Of a stretch of 64,000 bases of DNA, positions 20,640 through 63,405 are shown one piece after another. The position numbers were made by a program, and so were the translations under genes. The stretch is from Hydra vulgaris (taxonomy: Eukaryota; Cnidaria; Hydrozoa; Anthoathecata; Hydridae), in NCBI RefSeq assembly GCF_038396675.1, contig NC_088921.1, positions 16,018,501-16,082,500 on the forward strand, in the 5' to 3' direction. A model generated the notes under the pieces. It did not search any database, was not told where the DNA came from, and saw only the letters and a program-made list of their open reading frames with translations. Position 1 is the stretch's first letter; each line of letters starts with the position of its first letter.

Positions 20640-20704
20640 TTTGATGAGTCTTAATTGATGAAACACTGTGTAAAATGAGACAAATTATTTGTTAAGTGAT
20701 TTTC

Positions 20705-20707
<3 letters not shown>
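20640..20707 (-). repeat. AT-tract flanking repeat, copy 1
   Basis: Its reverse complement (AGAAAATCACTTAACAAAT ... TTTACACAGTGTTTCATCAA) matches 27127-27190, which also abuts an (AT)n tract. Confidence 0.8.
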
Positions 20708-21130
<423 letters not shown>

Positions 21131-21132
21131 CT

Positions 21133-21260
21133 ATATACTTGATGCGGTTGTGGCATATTAATAGAGTGCTTGCTTTGTAAGTGGGAAGTTCCAATTTTAT
21201 CACCTTTGAGAGCTGAGAGTGTTTAAGAAACAATTAAAAAAAGCTTTCTCTACTAAAGTA
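21133..21260 (+). mobile_element. tRNA-derived SINE remnant, tRNA-Thr-like
   Basis: Directly after the (AT)n tract: an A-box-like TATTAATAGAGTGC, an anticodon-loop-like CTTGCTTTGTAAGTGGG (TGT), and a B-box-like GAAGTTCCAATTTTATCACC. Both boxes are degenerate, so no functional tRNA. The tail merges into A-rich DNA. Confidence 0.5.
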
Positions 21261-34832: not shown

Positions 34833-37626
34833 GGTGGTTCCTACGTAATCAAAAAAAGTTTCTTTTTATTCATGAACCATTAATTTTTTCAAAAGTAGGT
34901 ACAGAATGTGTAAAAAAATATATATTTTCGAACTCCTAAAATATATTGATGATCACATATAGGCCTATAAGAGTCAAAATAACCCCAAAAAATAGAGTTT
35001 ACTAGAAACACAATTACTCATGAAAAAAAAAGCTTATTTTACTTTCAAATTTGGTATACTTGTGCGTGCTACCTGTATCTAGTGCGTGAGTTTTTTTTAT
35101 TAAAAGATCTTGTTTCTACTAAAAGTTATGCTTCAAGACAACTGTATTTTCGAAAAATCTTCTACTTGGCCTCCAATCATAGTTCCCTAACCACGACTTA
35201 CAAAAAATAAATTTATTTGAAAAAAACTCAGGCACTAGCAGTACACTGGATGAATCAGCCCTGAAAATTTCAAGTAGTTATCACTATTAATTTAAAAGTT
35301 ATTATGTTTTTCGTGAGACAATTTTCTTGAAAAACGATATGGTAGAAAATCAAAAAACAAGAAAAAAAATTTTTTTTAAAACTAAAATCCTCCTTTTAAA
35401 TAAGTTTCTCCTCCCTCTTTATGTAAGTCTTTATCCAATAAACCCTTCTTGATGGCTTTTAGTTTTTTTCTTTTTGCTTTAGTCTTATCTGATGTTTTAA
35501 TAAGTAAATTTTGGATGATGCGTCGGTTCATTTTTTCAGATATATTATTAAAACCGACATCAGTCTGTATTCCAAGTTTTTCATACACTTTAACAAGTCC
35601 AAATTGACCTTCGTTAAATTGAAGAATAGCACTTTATACACCTAACTGTAGAATTGATCTTTCTACAAAGACTTGCTTGGGACATTTCATCCAGATAAAA
35701 TTTTTCAGGGACTCGTTAGGATTTTGAGTTTCCCCGTGGATGCACTTGCGAAGAAGGTCATCATTTGAAAGGAAAAATCTTGGAAAATCTTTGACAAGAT
35801 AGAAAACATCCACTCTGGTAAATTAATCCTCTCTTTGTGTTTTTTTAGTTTTTTATTCTTGTAACTACACCACGATTCTTCTCCTGGTGGACAAAACATG
35901 TGGCGCTTATCTAAGTTAGAAAAGTTGGTACAATGATGAAGGATAGCACCTATCCACTTTTTTATTGTGTAAATTTTTTCATCGTCAGTGCAATTTAAAT
36001 TTAGACTTCTTCGAATGGCAATACCATAATAGTTTGTTATTGAATAGATGGAATTGTTTGTCAATTTTCCTTTTCCACCAAATGGTGTAGAGATATTTTT
36101 ATATTCTTGTACTAGTGTCCTAAGTCGAGAACCTATTCGTTTGTTTACATGTCCAATACATTCAAGTTTAACACGTGTAATACCAAACTGTGCTTCGAAG
36201 GTTTTGGAGTTAACAACTTCTTTGTAAGAAGCTGTGTCTCCATCTCCAAGATACTCATTATAAACTAGTTTATTTCGACTTACAGATTGCTGAAATATAT
36301 CAATAGCACCTGAGGATTCCTTTGCTACTGATGACTTTCGATGGTTAATTTTACAATTATGTGCAACTTTCCAATTTGTGTATTCTGTTGTCCCTTTTTT
36401 TCCACCCCATATTATACATTGTCTACAATGTTTTGATAAAACAATAACATCCAAGCACTTTCCTTTGCTTACTGCTATCACTACACCGTTCAACAAGGAG
36501 TGTCCTCTTTTTTGCCAAGTTCCATCAATCGATACGCGACAAGAATGTATACCTGGGACAATTTCTTCCATTTTTGCTTCATTTCCAGCATTTTGCATAC
36601 TTTCTAGTGCAGAATTTTCTTATGCAGAAAATAACCTAAAATTAATATTTCTAAAGGCAGTATTACATATTGAGTGCATATTCATGCATCGTGCAAATGT
36701 TTTAATCGACTCGTGCCCTTTTACCAATTTTTCGAAAAGCCATAACCAATCAAACATTAATTTCACTTGGCTTACAACCATACATTTTTTCAGAAGCACT
36801 AAAAGGTGAAGCATACTTGTGACTTTTATTTTTACATTTTCCACAAAAGTAAACAATTTTATAAGAAAATCCCCGTCTATCATCCAAACTATTAGATATT
36901 GTGACATTGGCTTCCCCCACATTCTTGACACTTGTTTCCTACTGCTATCATTTCCATAAGTATTTTAAAATTTATAAATAAAAAATAATCATCACTACTT
37001 AAAGAATGTTCAGCTGGTTTAATGGTAAAATTTTTTTTAGTGATATTTTCAATATTTACATTTTATTAATTTCTATTGATACCACATTTATTATTTACAA
37101 TATTTAAAGGTTTTTTACAACCACGACCACCAACAACCTTGCTTGATGACTTTCTTTTGTTATTTCGAAGGTTTCCCATATTAAATCTTTATTATTTTAC
37201 TACAATCTAAGTAAAATGATAAATAATTTCAACAAGCACATTAGAAAACAGTAAAAAGTAAAAAAATTATTATAAAAAAGCCTGCCTGCTGTTTGCACTT
37301 TGTATCAGCATAACTTATAATCATTAAATATTTAACAACTTGGACGTACAAGGCAACATTAGAATAGCAAAATAGATGTATTAGTTTGAGTTTTAAGGTA
37401 CATTTAAGATAATAACTAAAAAAAATAAAACGGTTGCTATGGCCGCTGCTAGGCACTAAAATTATACCTACCTGTATAAAATAGTAAATATTGTAAAAAG
37501 CAAAAACAAAATTAAAAAAAAAAAAAATACCACGAGAAAGAACGTTAAATTTTACATTTGAATATCTAATTTGCCAAAAAATCATTTTTTGAAAATATTT
37601 TGACTTTTGATTACGTAGGAACCACT
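34833..37626 (-). mobile_element. complete TTAA-flanked DNA transposon (Kolobok-like)
   Basis: The ends are inverted repeats: left GTGGTTCCTACGTAATCAAA from 34834 and its complement to 37625, identical over about 21 bp after a mismatched first base (G versus A). TTAA flanks both sides (34829-34832 and 37627-37630). The element is 2794 bp and carries one minus-strand transposase gene. TTAA duplications with ends starting in purines fit Kolobok; the transposase matches the domain catalogued as Mutator-like (PF20700). Superfamily name is therefore inference, the boundaries are seen directly. Confidence 0.9.
35382..37179 (-). pseudogene. Mutator/Kolobok-like transposase, broken
   Basis: The likely start is ATG at 37179 (MGNLRNNKRKS). 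In order: a CQECGGSQC zinc knuckle, FCGKCKNKS, SEKMYGC, then the core SIDGTWQKRGHSLLNGVVIA, VLSKHCRQC, a YLGDGDTASYKEV segment, LECIGHVNKRIGSRLR, and a basic C-terminal part KTSDKTKAKRKKLKAIKKGL. The Asp of SIDGTW and of GDGD are the conserved acidic positions. A 297-codon stretch (36598-35705) is open, but there are frameshifts near 36700 and 36930, stops near 36770 and 36620, and a break near 35700. So it is non-autonomous now, despite intact ends. Confidence 0.88.
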
Positions 37627-52982: not shown

Positions 52983-54953
52983 CTAACTGTTGCTCGGATC
53001 ATTATCTCCCTGTTCACTGTTTGCTTCCATTGTGAATTTAGGTAAGTACCAGTCTTGAATAAGTTTTTCAATCTTTGCTTTATTAAATGTTTTTCCTAAT
53101 ATTTTAGAGATTTCATCTGGAATAGAGTTTTTATAGTTTTTTTGTGCTTTTTTAAAAGCGTTTTTAATATTCTTAAAGCTATAATTTTGTTCATAAGTAA
53201 GTTTTTTAAAAATGTCGAGACAATTTGTGTCACTTAAATTAATATTTTTTATAGTTTCTTTAACTTTATTTTTCTTATACTCTGGATGCTTATTTTTGTT
53301 GACACCTTGAACTAAAAGTTTTTCTAAAGCTTCTTTAGGATTATATACAGAGTTATTAATTGGTATACCAAGATAATCACATAGCAAATTATATTCTAAT
53401 TCTTGAAAAGCATTTATTGTTTCAGCATTTGCTTGTGATATTCCGTAATCCTTTCTTCTTGCTTTACCATACGATTGTTCATATTGCTCATGGTAGTATC
53501 TACCTACATCTATAGCACCTTGTATAGCCATAGGTAATTTTGTAGCCATGTCTGATATTTTGTATTTGCCCTCTTTTACCAGTTCTAAGAACATAGCGTT
53601 GCTAATAAGGGCACTAGGATTCCTGTTAGATTTGCATGAGAATAGCAAGTATGATATTTCCAATAAAGTTTTTAGCCTATCTGAATCAATATCCTCATTA
53701 TTTAATTTTCCTTTAATAATATTCTGTAATTTACCTACTATTTCCGCTGCTCCTAGTTCAGTTTTTTCAAGAACCTTTTGAATTGATGTATATGTATCTA
53801 AGTTTATTACTTTTTCTGTGCGTTTGGTTGAAAATAAAAGTTCTTGAGTTATATCGATTGTCTTATCCCCACTGCTTGTCTTAAATAATATTGGTGTGCT
53901 TATAGCTGAAATATTAAAGCCTAATGGAGCAAATTTAGAATAAATTCTTAATATTTTTTGATAAGCTAAGCTAGATGATAAAAAATTAAGTGCATCTTCG
54001 CCATTGCTGTTTTGATAAGGTTCGAAGTAATTAAGGTTATTTATATAATGAAAGACAAGAGGTACAGCGTTACTTACTTTATTAGCAAAAAATTTTAGCT
54101 CTGTTTCAGCATGCCAATTTATACACTGAATAATCAAACTGAAACCATTAGAAGTCTTTCCAGTTATCATATCAACAATACTACTTTGCATTATAGGAGT
54201 TGCATTTTTATATATCTCTAGGATTGTGTAAAGCGTATTCGAGATATCCGGTATATTTTTTATCCAGTTAAAAAATACTTGTGATTTCTTTGGGTTTGAA
54301 TTAAAGATTGTTTCTAGCTTAGTTTTATTTTGTTCTTCGAAGTTATCTTTATTAATTAGCTCAGATATTAGTTTAAAATGACCAAGGTTTTTTGCATTGA
54401 ACTTTGGATGCTTCACATCCGCTTTATATTTAGGAACATCATTCTCAAGCTCATCGTATATACCCTTTACTTGTTGATGTATTTCATATGCTTTCCTAGT
54501 ATCTTTCACTTTAGTTTTATAATAATTAACAATACCTACTAATAATTCTTTATCTAGACTAACTAAAGTGGTTAATGTTGAAGCTAAGTCTATGTCAATT
54601 GAGCCTAACTGGTTTATATGGTATTCTATTTGGTGTATGTTAGGTATAGCTTTTATCTGGGTAAGAAATTCTTGAGATTTCTTTGGGTTTAAGGCAAAGG
54701 TTGTTTTTAACTTCTTTTTGTCTTGTTTTTCCAAGTTATCTTTATTAATTAGCTCAGATAATAGTTTAAAATGATCAAGGTTTTTCATCTTGATTTTTGA
54801 ATACTTTGCATTCGCGTTATATTTAGGAACATTATTCTCAAGCTCATTAAGTATATTTCTCACTTGTTGATATATATCCTTTAAAGAAGTAACAGCTTGT
54901 ATTATTTCCTTCTGATCATTATTTTCTACACCATTAAACATGATTTTTGTCAA
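52983..54953 (-). CDS. unrecognised 656-codon intronless ORF
   Basis: By far the longest uninterrupted ORF in the window. The first ATG is at 54941 (residue 5; 54953 is TTG); the frame is open upstream to about 55087 without an ATG. The protein is Lys/Asn/Ile-rich and hydrophilic, with no signal peptide or membrane segment evident. It contains an internal duplication of about 80 residues (roughly 26-107 and 157-238), each with NVPKY/DVPKY, a HFKL(L/I)SELINKDN core and NPKKSQ. The C-terminal half has MATKLPMAIQGAIDVGRYYH and ETINAFQELEYNLLCDYLGI. After the TAG the frame stays open for 30 charged codons to a TAA at 52890, so the original C-terminus may be lost. No family recognised. The style recalls AT-rich intracellular bacteria (Rickettsiales-like), but a transposon or host gene cannot be excluded. 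Confidence 0.6.
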   Translation of the reverse strand: MTKIMFNGVENNDQKEIIQAVTSLKDIYQQVRNILNELENNVPKYNANAKYSKIKMKNLDHFKLLSELINKDNLEKQDKKKLKTTFALNPKKSQEFLTQIKAIPNIHQIEYHINQLGSIDIDLASTLTTLVSLDKELLVGIVNYYKTKVKDTRKAYEIHQQVKGIYDELENDVPKYKADVKHPKFNAKNLGHFKLISELINKDNFEEQNKTKLETIFNSNPKKSQVFFNWIKNIPDISNTLYTILEIYKNATPIMQSSIVDMITGKTSNGFSLIIQCINWHAETELKFFANKVSNAVPLVFHYINNLNYFEPYQNSNGEDALNFLSSSLAYQKILRIYSKFAPLGFNISAISTPILFKTSSGDKTIDITQELLFSTKRTEKVINLDTYTSIQKVLEKTELGAAEIVGKLQNIIKGKLNNEDIDSDRLKTLLEISYLLFSCKSNRNPSALISNAMFLELVKEGKYKISDMATKLPMAIQGAIDVGRYYHEQYEQSYGKARRKDYGISQANAETINAFQELEYNLLCDYLGIPINNSVYNPKEALEKLLVQGVNKNKHPEYKKNKVKETIKNINLSDTNCLDIFKKLTYEQNYSFKNIKNAFKKAQKNYKNSIPDEISKILGKTFNKAKIEKLIQDWYLPKFTMEANSEQGDNDPSNS

Positions 54954-55060
54954 ATCTTTTGACTTATATAGGTGATGGTTTAAATAATTGTTTACTACAT
55001 AAGGATTAACATTAATCTCCTTTTTTATAATATCATTTATCTTCTCTGCAATGATTAATT

Positions 55061-55106
55061 TTTGCCGAGGCTGTTTTGCGCGGTTTCATTCTCATTGCCG
55101 AGGCCA
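55061..55106. repeat. repeated TTGCCGAGGC in a GC-richer patch
   Basis: TTGCCGAGGC occurs at about 55061 and 55097, enclosing TGTTTTGCGCGGTTTCATTC, just upstream of the long ORF. Composition differs sharply from the flanks. Confidence 0.7.
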
Positions 55107-55716: not shown

Positions 55717-57146
55717 GCGAACAGGTTAGATTCCAATGTTGGAACGTTTGTTTTAAAGTTGGCTTCCAATACATCCAGAGGGAAGTGCAACTGTAATTTT
55801 TTTTACCCACGATTATACATTGGAGCATTTTTATACCAAATTTCTTGCATATTGTCAATACCTTACCCACATATGATTGTTGATTGTTCATTAACGGCAT
55901 CTGAGTCCGTATAATAGAATAACTTATGGGGTTGTTTAGAAGACTGATAAATAGATTTAATTTATTTCGAAAAAGAATAGCTGACATATCGTCTACTTTG
56001 AAATAAAAATGCAGGTTTTTCTACTTTGCTTTGAAACATGAAGAAGGGTTGCTTCCACACAGTTCTAATCTGTAAAACAACGTTGGAACAGCTAAGGAAT
56101 TAAATAAGGCTTGGTTGATAATGAATCAATTAAATTAGTTAACAAAAATAATGAGGTTGATATATCCGTTGGTTGATAATTCCATGGATTCAGTTGGTTG
56201 ATAATTCCATGATTGATAATTCCGATAAAGGTTGATAATTCCATAAATTATTATTAATAAGGCATAGTTGCTGATTCCATTTTGAATAATTCTAATACAT
56301 CTTTTACTTCTGACTTTGTACAACCAGAGCTGTTTCTAGGTACCATAGGGGCCCTGGGCAGAAAAGACAACTGTGGCCCTGTAAATGCGCGAATAGGACC
56401 CCGGTTAATGCGGGGTCCTGTTCGTTTTTATGCGTTAATATTCGGTCCTATTCGGGGTTATGCGTTTTAAAGGTGTATTAATTCTTCACCATTTTAACTT
56501 GCTTCAGTTGGCGTGAAAATTATATTTTGCTTATTATTTTATTTAAGAATGAATTTCACTTTTATTTAGTGCTACAATTAAATTTATTCTCCACCTCATT
56601 CTTATTTGTGCTGGTTTGAAACTTAAGGTAAACTGTTATGCTTAAACTTAATAAAAATTTGAGCGTGAACCTTCATTAAACTACTGTGGCCATTTACAAC
56701 AATCAATTATCTATGCTCTTAAAATATTTCAAGTTTGTAGGATATTCCCCTGACATCTAATTTTTCTCCCCTAGATTAGAAATTTTTATGTGTTTGACGG
56801 CAATTATTAAATTACCTATTAAAACCTTTTATTGCTGTAGAAATATGACATTAATCATTTCTTGTTATAATTGTTGTTATATTGTTGTTGTTTATATTTA
56901 CTGTTACTTCATCTTTAGAAACTAACATTGTTTAAGATAATATATATGATCTGTAACAACAACTAACTTTTGTTTTATGTTAGTTTCTTCATGTATTCAA
57001 TGGAATTTCAAAGAAACACTGGTACTACAAAACACTAGTATTATTGTAAAAGTTCGGTATTGTAATTCATTTACATTATTTTGTTTGAAGTTGTTAATGT
57101 ATGAACAAAAAGATAAGATTTTGCTACCCTTTTTCTCTTCCACAAT
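55717..57146. other. mixed non-coding DNA
   Basis: Minus-strand frames at 55.7-55.93 kb (EIWYKNAPMYNRG; FKTNVPTLESNLFAANY) look coding-like but are broken and unrecognised. GGTTGATAATTCCAT repeats four times at 56168-56250. A GC-rich patch at 56326-56460 starts CAGAGCTGTTTCTAGG, carries GGGGCCCTGGGCAG (hAT-end-like), and holds a 9 bp hairpin AGGACCCCG/CGGGGTCCT. Confidence 0.45.
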
Positions 57147-57635
57147 ATGTCCAAAATAAGTTTACATTGCCATGCTCCAGGATGCAAAGTCATCATTGAA
57201 AGTCCCAGTGAAGCAATTGCTATTGCACTATTTAACAGCCACCAACTTCACCATCGTTCAAACTCAATTGACATTCATTCAGCCTTCTCAAAGCACAAGG
57301 CACCAAAAATGGATCGTCCTCACATTGGCCAGGATATATCTGAAGAAGAGTGGGGAAATTTTATTAGTCGCTGGACAAGAGATGTACAGATATTAGACAA
57401 GAGGAGAAGACGGCCTTAAAAATTAGCTCCTGAAAGAAAACCCTAAGATAATCAATGAAAACGATGAGACAATTCTTAGAGCAATGAAGAAACCGGCTGA
57501 GTGTCCTCCAAATGAGACAGGGACACAATGAAAATATTCGCTCATTCTACGCAAAAATGAAAAGCAAGGCTCCTATTTGCAACTACTATGTACAATGTCA
57601 CTGCAATCCAAAAAAAACCGTTCATTTTACCAATG
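57147..57635 (+). pseudogene. Ty3/gypsy gag, first part
   Basis: The frame opens with MSKISLHCHAPGCKVI, the Cys/His start typical of one cnidarian gypsy gag group, then ISEEEWGNFISRW. After frame changes it continues with MRQGHNENIRSFYAKMKS and a Cys-containing segment, and runs into the Transib end at 57636. The rest of gag resumes at 61412, with the 5 bp duplication CAATG on both sides; removing the Transib and one duplication copy leaves the gag frame uninterrupted at that point. Frameshifts near 57420 and 57510 show it was already, or is now, inactive. Confidence 0.75.
57631..57635. repeat. left target-site duplication CAATG of the Transib
   Basis: CAATG directly before CACAGTGG; repeated at 61412-61416 directly after CCACTGTG. 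Confidence 0.85.
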
Positions 57636-57673
57636 CACAGTGGTCCAGAAATGCCACTTTTGAGACAAAAATC
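57636..57673 (+). promoter_or_regulatory. left RSS-like transposase site
   Basis: Heptamer CACAGTG at 57636-57642, 22 bp spacer, nonamer-like ACAAAAATC at 57665-57673. Layout matches a 23-type RSS within one base. Confidence 0.7.
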
Positions 57674-57715
57674 ATATCTTCACCAATTTTGAAGATAATC
57701 AGCTAAATTTTTGAG

Positions 57716-58718
57716 TGAATGTTCATTATACTCTGGTCAACAATACCTGTTATTGTAATATTGCTTTATATACCTCTGAAGGACACGCCAATAACACAAA
57801 ACCAAGGACAAACCGCAAAACAAATAATAAACATGTGACACGTATTTCATATTAATTTTCAACTTTCTATTGACTATAAACAGTCACCAGAATGTTTGAT
57901 TTTCGATTTTTTTTCGATTGAATAAGTATCATACATGTGCAGAACACCAAGAACACATAGCATAATAAAACTTGCATTTAACTTATTTTAACAGAATTAT
58001 GAATACATTTTAACTAAATATTTTCTAGAGGACTAACTTCACATTTATGACATCTTAGTGGACTACAAAAACATGCAGAGTAGCACACTAAGGGCAAAAA
58101 GTAAGCACAGCAACAATATATAAAGAATTAAAATAATTTCCAAAATTTATGGTACATTTACAAAAATTAGTGTATAGAATAAATAAACTTTAAAATACAT
58201 ACACATCAAGGACACATGACATAACATGCAACATGCCTTTTGCATTTGTACTTATATCAAGATGTTAAAATTTATTTCCATAACACTAACAAAATGTAGT
58301 ATTATAATAATTTGACTTCCTGGTCAATTAATGAACAAAATCATCAAGTACACATATTTTGTAAATACCTAGACATGAATAATCTGTGCATATGGTAGTA
58401 CAGAAAGAACATACAACAACTTAAAAAGAACGCGTATTATTGGTTTTACACCAAGATTATAAATAAAAATAACTTTTTTTTAAATATTTCTTTATTAAAA
58501 TTTTTTTTAATAAACTGAGCAATTTAAAAATATATAATTATGAAGGGTTTGAGTTTTTAAAAAACATCAATGAAACATGTGTACATAATACTAGAAAAAA
58601 GGTGCTATTTTAAAAATGCAGCTTTATAGATTTCTTAAAATAAAGTAAATAAATTTAGGATACATACTATCAATAATTCAATTAGTTTGATATAAAGAAT
58701 TTAATATTATTTAGAAAG
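57716..58718. other. 3' non-coding part of the Transib
   Basis: About 1 kb between the transposase stop and the left end. No second ORF and no RAG2-like sequence. Confidence 0.6.
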
Positions 58719-60698
58719 TTACAAAAGAAGGTCTAAACATTCTGCTGGAAGTTCAAGTTCCTTTTTTGATTCAGAACTTCGCCTCATAAAAGTGATAAAG
58801 GGGTCTGATGAGTAGAGCAATCTTTTCATTACATCTTCATTTGTAAGTTTTCTCGAAAATTTTCTTGTAAAATGTTCTCGAAAATTTTTGACATCTTTAT
58901 TTCTACTTTCCTGTGCTTCTTCAGATAAGAGGCCAATTGGAACTGGCTTGTCTCTTACAACCTGGTGTGAATGTACAATCATCTTGTGAACTCCAACAGG
59001 CATAGGATACCATTTAAAATGTTCTACATATGTCTTAAATGTTTCTTTGCAATATAATTCTAGTTTATCTGGATTAATCGGATGTTTACAGGACAACACA
59101 CAAAGGACAACAAAAAATCTTTTAACAAGACCCTTATCAAATCCAAGTATTTCAGCAAAAGTTTCATGGCTTCTAAATGCCCTTCTTGCTGTGTTTCCAT
59201 CATTGGATGTACCAGAGCCACCACATCTTGGTACATCAACAACAAATCCAAGTGTATCTTTAATTTTTTCCTGAATCTCCTTTTTTCTACTTGCAACTAT
59301 ATTTTTTTTATGAGTGTTTGCATGAAAAAATCCACAATCATTGTACCCTGGTCTTCTTCTCTGTCCAATATGTAACAGACATTCAAAACAACGAATCCAG
59401 AGATGGAGAGTGAGGATTCCCAGGTCCAAAGATATCTGATTAGGTTTTTTATTTTAAGCAATTACAAAGTCATTCATTTTTTTAGGATTTAATCCACATA
59501 TATTGCAAACTTGATAAGAATCAGTTAATGGAGAAAGAAAAGTGGAAACTTTTCCATCAATCATTGTACATTCTAACTTGTGCTTGACTTGAAATAAGTC
59601 TATGGTTGTTGTTTTGAGTTCAGTTGACATAAAAAAATCATATTCTGCTTTAACAATTTGCTGATTTTCTTTAAAGTATTGCATTCGAACAGGGCGACAA
59701 TATTAAGTTGAGGATGTTTTTTTAGTCCAAAGAAAAACATTAGTTTTCTGTACTTACTTACTGTAGTTGCACAGGTACTGTACATGAAAGAAATAAAGAT
59801 TCTTCAAGTGAGACTGACAATCTGTCCTCTTCATCTTCAGTTCTCTGTTTATAAACAGACAGTCCAGTTGAACCATTGAATCCGACTTTGCTTATAAGAA
59901 TAAGAGAATTGCAAGGCTCAGGTAGTTTTGATTTATCAATAACTTTCCAAATCCTGTTTGTAGTGTGATCCATTATTCTTTGAAGATTTACAGAAGCACT
60001 GTAGTTTGTGGTAACAATTCCAGAATCTGGAATACAATCACTTTTAGATTTCACAATAAAGTTGTAGGCAGGGTATAACATGCAACCTTTATCTAAGGCC
60101 CCTTGATGTGATAGTCTGCCCTACTCATTCTACAGTCCAACATTAGAGCTAAAGCTTCTTCAGCTGAGTAGACTTTAGAGCATGATACATTGCAGGATCC
60201 ATGAATTTTACTTTCCATCATATGTTTTAAAACTTTGGTGTCTTTATTTCGTTCTTCTTTACTTAGATTAAAAATAAGGGCATGAAACAGGCTTTCAGTA
60301 GTAACTCCTAATTTTCCAGTAATCTCTGAAGATGTTCTTTTCTTTGACCTTGTTGAGAGATCTTTAAATGATTTTGATGGTGCACCTTGTTGTAAATGGT
60401 TTATTCTAACTTGCTGTTGAAGTTCATTTACAATAAATTCCATATTTAACCATTTCTCGTAACGATTTATAAATCTCCCTTTTTGTCTACCTGTCTCATT
60501 CCATTTCTTTTTAAAAATTTTCATAAATTTTTCGGTTAGACTCATTTGATTGTAGTTTGGATAACATTGAGACATCAATATACAAATTTCAGTTTTCGCT
60601 TTCTTACTAATTAAACTTTCATATTTATTATCAGATTTTCCTTTAATTAAGTAATCGAAAATGTTGTTGTTCTTCATATTTAAATTTGATTTCACCAT
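58719..60698 (-). pseudogene. Transib transposase, RAG1-related, broken
   Basis: Coding order on the minus strand: an N-terminal 201-codon ORF (60698-60093, NIFDYLIKGKSDNKY ... FKDLSTRSKKRTSSEI ... CRMSRADYH). Next a second frame (60081-59758) with LISKVGFNGSTGLSVYKQ. Then CRPVRMQYFKENQQ, LECTMIDGKVSTFLSPLTD and CNICGLNPKKMN, followed by LGILTLHLWIRCFECLLHI, GGSGTSNDGNTARRAF, PMPVGVHKMIVHSHQV, GLLSEEAQESRNKDVKNFRE and TNEDVMKRLLYSSDP. These are the RAG1-core signatures. Of the DDE residues, the Asp of MIDGK and the Glu of LSEEAQE are present, but the first Asp (GFDGS in the family) is Asn (codon at 59875-59877). Stops at 59703-59705 and 59454-59456 and frameshifts near 60100 and 59750 also inactivate it. 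Confidence 0.92.
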
Positions 60699-61374
60699 TA
60701 AAGCGGTGAAAGGTATTTAGTGCACTAAGCAATTACTGTAAATATTTGTGAATATTTTTTATTTTGATTGTTTTGTTTAATCGTCTTTTCCGCTTTTATT
60801 CTAGAATATTCCGCTATTCATATTCGCGGTTGAAACTTGTTAAAAAACATCGAGATGGTGAGGGGGAGCCGTATTTTAATTTTAGTATTTCATGTTTGAA
60901 CTGACCCTATAGACACAAAAGCAAACAAAAGCAGCCAAAACTTATTCGGAAATTTTCTATATACATCATTTTTTTAAAGGCAAAAAATTTCAAGCTGGGC
61001 AAACCTGGGCAAAAATTTTCCTGATTGTTCAAAGTTTTATTTTCAAACAATTTAATAGAAAAAAATGTTAAACATGCGGTAAATTGTGTCTTTTTTATGA
61101 AATTTTATATTTTAAATTATTTTATGTTGATCCTCCATATTTTATAAGAATATTTAAAAAAATTGGTATATCTGTGACATTGGTAGGAGTTAGAATGTAT
61201 AAAAGTTTGCAGACTAGTTTTTGCCCGAAAAAATGTAATTTTGTGTCAATTTTTGAACTTCAAACCCTCCTTAGACAATTTTTTTTAAAATAACGGACCT
61301 TAGAAATTTAAATCTGGTTTTCACATACTATATATAATTCAATTTTTAAATTGTTTTTATTAAAAAACAAACTA
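60699..61374. other. 5' non-coding part of the Transib
   Basis: Leader between the right end and the transposase start. No coding signal or obvious core promoter could be defended. Confidence 0.5.
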
Positions 61375-61411
61375 TGTTTTTGTATTTATGACATGGTACT
61401 GGACCACTGTG
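61375..61411 (-). promoter_or_regulatory. right RSS-like transposase site
   Basis: On the minus strand: heptamer CACAGTG (61411-61405), 21 bp spacer, nonamer-like ACAAAAACA (61383-61375). Confidence 0.7.
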
Positions 61412-62220
61412 CAATGGTATAATACGAGATATTGTTGTTGCTGGACTATCAGATTTTGACATCCGTAAAGATGTACTTGAATGGGTATCATTTGACACAG
61501 CCTCAATCGCAGATATCATTGCTTTTATCGAGGGTAAGGAAATAACACGAAATTCACTAGGCTGTAGTTCAACAACAGCAATGTATGTGATTGCCCCAAA
61601 AGAAGTCTTCCACCAGGTGCATCCTCTAAACTTCCTTTTAACTGGTCTCCTGGAAACAACGAAAGGATGAAAACTTGGCTTCTTGAAAGATACTCTGCCT
61701 CATCATTCAACACATGCCCACACCAGATTTTACCTGACATGGAGGGGCCTCCAATTAGTATTTTAATTCAGGAAAATGTTAATCCAGTTGCAGCATTCAC
61801 TCCAGCCACCATGGCAATCCATTGGCAAGACCAGGATGAGAAAGATTTACTTCGTGATGAATCTCTTGGTGTTATTGAAAAGGTACCCCCAGGAGAACCT
61901 TCAAAATGGTGTCACAGAATGGTCATCACACGAAAACATGACGGCAGGCCTCGTTGCACTGTTGACTTATCCCCATTAAATAAATATTGCCACAAAGAAA
62001 CCCATGCAATAAAATCACCAATTAGCTCGTTCAGTACCAAGAAATTCATGGAAAACTGTAACCCATGCATGGAATGGTTATCATAGCGTTCCGATACGCA
62101 TCGAAGATAGACATCTTACCACCTTCATTTCACCTTTTGAACACTATAGATACATTCGAGCTCCTCAAGGTTTTGTCTCCAGCGGAGATGGCTACAACAG
62201 GCGTTTTGATGAAATTGTGG
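61412..62220 (+). pseudogene. Ty3/gypsy gag end and reverse transcriptase start
   Basis: After the duplicated CAATG the gag frame resumes (DIVVAGLSDFDIRKDVLEW, FIEGKEITRNSL) to about 61560. The pol part follows (61667 on): WLLERYSASSFNTCPHQILP, WCHRMVITRKHDGRPRCTVD with the RT R/VD box and LNKYCHKETHAIKSP. After a frameshift near 62047 come THAWNGYHSVPIRIEDRHLT and RAPQGFVSSGDGYNRRFDEI. It stops at about 62220, just before the catalytic YVDD-type box, where hAT sequence begins. Same retroelement as 57147-57635. Confidence 0.85.
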
Positions 62221-62221
62221 C

Positions 62222-63405
62222 AGTCTTGAAATCTTTCAAACATATCGAACAAACTGTTGCGCCTAGTTTTACAATCGAGAATCAACTTAAGCTTTTTCCT
62301 GTATTTTTGTAGGATATACTTCTGTAATTATGTATCACTCTTGACAGGAGAAATTTTTAATATTTTCGCAACCTTTCTCACTTTTTTCATGAGGTCTTTG
62401 TAATTGCTAACCGATTCAGCAGATGGTTGGTTCAAAATTATTGTCAAACCATATTCTTTATTTATAACTTCATCATCATCAGTGTTACCATATTCATCAT
62501 CTTCTTCACAGTTTTCATATGTAGTAAACGATTCTTCGACTTATCCGTTGTTTTTCTTGTATAGGATATCAATAACTGCAAGTTGTATTCCATGAGTATA
62601 ACATAGTTGATGATAGGAAGACATCATTTTGCCGACTTTCACCATTACACCTGCTCCATCAGTGGTCATCGCAATAATGTCTTTTTAGTGGTCAATATCG
62701 AAGCTATTCAGCCTTCTTGCAACTAACTTGACGCAGTATTTTGCATTACACAATCCATGGGTTCGAATCAATCTAAGATTAATGTGTTTCGCTTCCATAT
62801 GTACATTTAAGTTTAAATGTACATTTGGAATCTCTGACTATTTTGTGATGTCCATTCGTCAAACGTTATAGAAAACTTTTGATTTTGCTTTTTTAGTGAT
62901 ATGAATTTTTGCATTATGTCGGCTTTTACAGAATCTGAGAATTTAACTACCATCGATTTTATAGTATTAGGTAAAGTAGGGAGCCGTAAACCACACTTTG
63001 AAAACAAATACCGCAAATCTGAAGATGTGTTAAAACTATTAAATGTAAAGCCATCTTTATTAACCATGCGCAATACCATTTTTTCCATAGAAATTTCTTT
63101 TACGGAAAACGTGTCAATTGTTCTGACCTTTTTCGATAGAGTTACTTCTTCGTCTTCGCAGTCGATGTATATTTTAGGCTCTGGTTCAACTGATTCATTC
63201 TGTAATGAAGTTGAAGCTCTGTCTAGTTGTGAAACGTTTGATTTTAAATCGGTACCATGTTTAGTTTTTACATGGATTAATAACCCTTTAGTTGATCTTT
63301 GACTAATTTTTAAAACAGCCGAACATTACATGCACTTCGCAAATTCTTCTTTGCCCCTTTTTTTGAAATAATTCCATATAGTTTTAATTTGCGACATGCT
63401 TAGTT
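62222..63405 (-). pseudogene. hAT transposase with BED finger, broken
   Basis: Minus-strand order: MSQIKTIWNYFKKRGKEEF then a BED finger with KC-M-stop-C, STKGLLIHVKTKHG; an acidic linker; KEISMEKMVLRMVNKDGFTF, KKQNQKFSITFDEWTS (core with the first Asp); a frame change; IAMTTDGAGVMVKVGKM and HQLCYTHGIQLAVIDILYKK; an acidic insert; KVRKVAKILKISPVKSDT; and ILDCKTRRNSLFDMFERF up to the junction with gypsy sequence near 62220. The C-terminal dimerisation domain is missing. In-frame TGA/TAA codons and frameshifts make it inactive. The conserved block corresponds to the fragment at 1-150. Confidence 0.88.

Follow-up and report, generated by a model that had tools for sequence, protein, structure and literature searches.

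Transib elements are known to be related to the enzyme responsible for cutting antibody genes, and a paper of 2005 is said to be the original report on Transib and the recombination signal sequence (RSS). That signal has as its consensus the heptamer CACAGTG and the nonamer ACAAAAACC, held apart by a spacer of 12 or 23 bp (PMC8289069; here and below, papers cited by PMC number are represented by excerpts). The terminal inverted repeats (TIRs) of Transibs are described as comprising a heptamer, a nonamer-like motif and symmetric spacers of 20–22 bp, with 12/23-like asymmetry in a few (PMC8355894), and those of Subgroup II Transibs as either symmetric or asymmetric (PMC9435367). In the excerpted portion of another account, most Transib families, for example HzTransib, have symmetric TIRs that resemble the RSS nonamer little or not at all (PMC8289069). 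Five-base-pair duplications and heptamer-like tips are likewise documented (PMC7204232, PMC4411706), and a sea star element carries identical TIRs of 13 bp (PMC4411706). One of the closest described systems is HzTransib of Helicoverpa zea, represented in the PDB by 6pqn and five further entries; its catalytic residues are D126, D225 and E436, and a hairpin forms on the flank during its reaction (PMC6941560).

Against this background, positions 57636–61411 (3,776 bp) of the window—the whole 64-kb stretch of DNA that was analysed—very probably represent a decayed, HzTransib-like cut-and-paste DNA transposon lying within another reading frame, a judgment that takes in the mechanism proposed below and a probable subterminal nonamer motif (Table 1). 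The two ends show perfect inverted identity over the 13 bp of CACAGTGGTCCAG, a CAC-type repeat that opens with an RSS-heptamer-like CACAGTG, and CAATG flanks the element on both sides. When the flanks are joined with one CAATG counted, an open frame, CNYYVQCHCNPKKTVHFTN-GIIRDIVVAGLSDFDIRKDV, runs across the empty site, so both the boundaries of the element and its 5-bp duplication are firm. An earlier note on this DNA had placed the element at these coordinates, with CACAGTG at both tips and a 5-bp duplication, and on all of these points it was right. At up to three mismatches, the TIR finds six matches in the window, namely the two exact ones at the element ends and four with three mismatches, and 25 of 100 shuffles give as many; the window holds no second copy of the element. 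The interrupted frame resembles by eye the gag of a gypsy-type element, a label for which Pfam offers no support: 61568–62086 and 61392–61670 have no match, and 57117–57419 has a sub-cutoff DUF4646 match alone (16.1 versus 23.4 bits).

Table 1. Coordinates, in window positions, of the element, its insertion site and its transposase gene
Feature	Position	Strand	Basis or remark
Interrupted reading frame, left part	57488..57635	+	Reading frame; flank join
Left TSD, CAATG	57631..57635	.	Empty-site join in frame
Left 13-bp TIR, CACAGTGGTCCAG	57636..57648	+	Starts with heptamer CACAGTG (57636–57642)
Left nonamer-like motif, ACAAAAATC	57665..57673	+	8/9 to ACAAAAACC; spacer 22 bp
Transposase piece D, C-terminal half, GGSGTSNDGNTARR	58719..59453	-	HzTransib 6pqn, E 3.2e-50
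In-frame stop between pieces C and D	59454..59456	-	Frame reading
Transposase piece C	about 59457..59702	-	HzTransib, E 4.6e-7; TMIDGK
In-frame stop just before piece C	59703..59705	-	Frame reading
Transposase piece B	59758..60120	-	HzTransib, E 2.9e-11; frame differs from A, C, D
Transposase piece A, N-terminal	about 60096..60698	-	ATG start; GAPSKSF from 60386 downwards
Right nonamer-like motif, ACAAAAACA	61375..61383	-	8/9 to ACAAAAACC; spacer 21 bp
Right 13-bp TIR, CACAGTGGTCCAG	61399..61411	-	Heptamer CACAGTG at 61405–61411
Right TSD, CAATG	61412..61416	.	Empty-site join in frame
Interrupted reading frame, right part	61417..61670	+	Continuous with left part, one CAATG counted

The transposase gene is read as four successive minus-strand pieces, A to D. 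Three of the four (B, C and D) match HzTransib (PDB 6pqn), collinearly along the gene and with the conserved blocks in the same order; piece D is 43% identical to HzTransib over the matched stretch in a two-sequence alignment. For piece A, neither the PDB (at E 1) nor Pfam (above cutoff) yields a match, and some 205 residues precede the first matched residue here, compared with 40 in the 6pqn chain. These matches bear out the Transib identity that the earlier note had assigned to the transposase, and the RAG1-core signatures it had picked out, GGSGTSNDGNTAR and LSEEAQE, are indeed found in the open reading frame of piece D. Piece D also matches the Pfam RAG1 profile, at E 1.9e-4 and 20.1 bits, under its 25-bit cutoff.

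The transposase of this copy is dead, and a working enzyme is no longer encoded. Pieces A, C and D lie in one frame and B in another, which entails two frame changes, and two stops interrupt the reading in frame. The catalytic residues of HzTransib correspond to positions 109, 208 and 419 of the PDB chain, where the numbering runs 17 lower throughout; in this copy the DDE triad reads N/D/E: the first Asp has become Asn (AAT, 59875–59877, minus strand, piece B); the second Asp is kept at 59556–59558 within TMIDGK of piece C, and the Glu is kept as the last residue of LSEEAQE in piece D (58908–58910). Two frame changes, two stops and a lost Asp thus add up to at least five lesions and, given the other damage to the gene, we take the Asn as the decay of a single copy rather than as a ground to leave Transib. 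This broken state of the gene, including its first catalytic residue, had escaped the earlier note. One might instead suppose the transposase to be intact and put the breaks down to introns or sequencing errors, a supposition helped by the shortness of the frame changes and by the assembled sequence being the sole basis for the reading, but it would have to explain away the frame changes, the stops and the lost Asp as separate lesions. Introns in particular fare poorly, as the gap between B and C measures about 55 nt and a GTAAGT-to-CAG interval read there by eye would span just 14 nt. We regard an intact gene as very unlikely, and have rejected it together with the intron reading.

A different kind of element altogether would be a RAGL transposon, bearing RAG1L and RAG2L, whose RAG2-like gene has been lost or has become unrecognizable. 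CAC-type tips and 5-bp duplications are common to ProtoRAG, other RAGL elements and the present one (PMC7204232, in excerpt), and the 1,083 bp to the left of the transposase gene could just accommodate a short, decayed one. Set against this, piece D scores 174 bits to HzTransib and no more than 13 bits to vertebrate RAG1, and no CCGHC motif is seen by eye after its last conserved block. The longest open frames outside the transposase gene measure 48 aa on the left and 73 aa on the right, and no RAG2-like frame was found. The inner TR5 element of ProtoRAG is described as not A-rich (PMC8289069, in excerpt), unlike the 9-mers here. With an HzTransib-type transposase and no RAG2-like open frame, a RAG2-bearing element is extremely improbable and was set aside.

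The A-rich 9-mers near the two ends call for closer weighing. Both are where the earlier note had reported them, separated by 22 bp from the left heptamer and by 21 bp from the right one and each agreeing with the RSS nonamer at eight of nine positions, and its remark that both ends lie nearer to a 23-type RSS than to a 12/23 pair agrees with these spacers. Sampling 200,000 random places on the two strands of the window gives an 8/9 nonamer match at spacers 21–23 with a frequency of 7.9e-4 per end. As a control closer to the DNA in question, positions 14–80 of each end were shuffled with dinucleotides preserved, 20,000 times per end: 19 of the shuffles of the left end and 98 of those of the right reach 8/9 at spacers 21–23, rising to 35 and 139, respectively, when spacers of 20–24 are allowed. 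Multiplying these rates for the left and right ends puts the expectation for the pair at about 5e-6, if the ends are assumed to be independent; the rates used are those for spacers 21–23. Such a match is thus above chance at both ends of this one copy.

It could nonetheless be that the Transib identity is right and the 9-mers are chance, a reading that we consider unlikely while granting that it has something to recommend it. The A+T content of positions 14–80 is 72% at the left end and 85% at the right, the right-end shuffles reach 8/9 in the 98 cases mentioned, and the right end contains a second nonamer match, of 7/9, at position 52. Furthermore, the two ends are only weakly alike inward of the TIR, their longest common run at near-equal depth being 7 bases, which 1,007 of 20,000 shuffles equal. 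What tells against chance is that both ends carry an 8/9 match at nearly equal distances, in a position predefined by the 23RSS, and that the combined rate, independence assumed, is so small. The earlier note had called the nonamers the weaker part of the case, as A-rich 9-mers are common in such AT-rich DNA; 8/9 matches are rare in shuffles of the ends' own DNA, and on these statistics, drawn from a single copy, the nonamers are accordingly less weak than it had feared. We favor the reading in which the A-rich 9-mers are probably a subterminal motif that the transposase would bind, in a 23RSS-like layout at both ends.

Compared with a vertebrate 23RSS, the heptamer here is identical to the consensus and the nonamer departs from it at one position in nine, and the spacers are 22 and 21 bp where the vertebrate signal has 23. 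Since both ends are alike, the element contains no 12/23 pair, and the asymmetry of V(D)J signals is absent, both ends being 23-like. It is a bolder proposition that both ends are working 23RSS-like sites, open to binding and cleavage by vertebrate RAG1/RAG2 together with a 12RSS, which would place an A-rich nonamer at a distance of about 23 bp in a lineage without RAG2; we hold this to be doubtful.

How the element may have come to its site can be sketched by analogy. A RAG1-like DDE transposase of the same family would bind the CACAGTG-type tips and would cleave immediately 5' of the heptamer by way of a hairpin on the flanking DNA, if the chemistry follows that of HzTransib. Insertion with a 5-bp stagger would then leave CAATG on both sides.

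A further question is what part of the transposase might recognize the nonamers. Transibs are described as having a region equivalent to the nonamer-binding domain (NBD), with GRP positions (PMC9435367, in excerpt), and GAPSKSF in piece A may possibly be a degenerate nonamer-binding region of the GRP type, although its alignment is not significant. When piece A is aligned locally to the mouse NBD, the best-scoring alignment begins at GAPSK, opposite GRPRQ, but its score is equaled by 355 of 1,000 shuffled versions of the piece; for the stretch beginning at GAPSK, 89 of 1,000 shuffles score as highly against the mouse NBD. BLASTP of piece A against the mouse NBD returns nothing, phmmer of a 63-residue stretch of piece A finds no match in the PDB, and the predicted fold of piece A, with a mean pLDDT of 35, is unusable. 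The resemblance of GAPSK to the NBD is best treated as a lead, not a finding.

Relatives were also sought more widely. Piece D has no tblastn match in plasmids and phages, and of the 18, 169 and 20 pattern matches that three protein scans of viral contigs produced, none was confirmed as a relative. In genome contigs, the 71 matches of a protein scan likewise included no relative, and a pattern combining the TIR with ACAAAAA gave 0 matches. These contig scans may omit records from the window's own genome or close to it. One viral contig (L001) that matched the TIR plus AAAAA, and of which 9,815 of 15,134 bases were examined, was rejected as a relative: its GC content is 59%, its reading frames look phage-like by eye, it has one chance-like TIR match with 3 mismatches and no second TIR, and no transposase match in it is better than E 1.0.

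Other features stand out elsewhere in the window. A fragment of a Mutator-like transposase occupies 35705–36619 on the minus strand (Pfam PF20700, E 2.2e-36), and a 38-base inverted repeat found by self-BLAST at 62793–62830 adjoins a 170-residue frame (window 62793–63325) that resembles by eye part of a hAT-type transposase but for which Pfam gives nothing above cutoff and NCBIfam nothing at all. At 20651–21233, the frames of both strands read YIYIYI, which suggests a long TA-rich microsatellite. The longest of the 13 frames of at least 150 aa in the window is an uninterrupted one of 700 residues at 52983–55085 on the minus strand (the next has 304 aa). It shows an internal duplication by eye, its best matches in Pfam and NCBIfam (E 0.091 and 0.056) do not come near the cutoffs, plasmids contain no match to it, and it is possibly a transferred gene, given the impression by eye that it looks bacterial. 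Neither ARAGORN nor Rfam gave a hit anywhere in the window.

Among described elements, the present one resembles, by description only, the Transib families with symmetric spacers of 20–22 bp (PMC8355894), which it parallels in heptamer, nonamer-like motif and spacers. As RSS-like Transib ends with such spacers are already on record in that paper, the element comes as no surprise and is ordinary for its kind. It departs from HzTransib, the TIRs of which have little or no nonamer similarity in the excerpt of PMC8289069, in carrying 8/9 matches at both ends. The papers cited treat Transib ends as related to V(D)J signals or as their source, and the excerpts of PMC8355894 and PMC8289069 disagree on how frequent Transib nonamers are. 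It is here that nonamers of 8/9 at both ends, 21–22 bp from the heptamers, provide a useful data point, while leaving the model unchanged.
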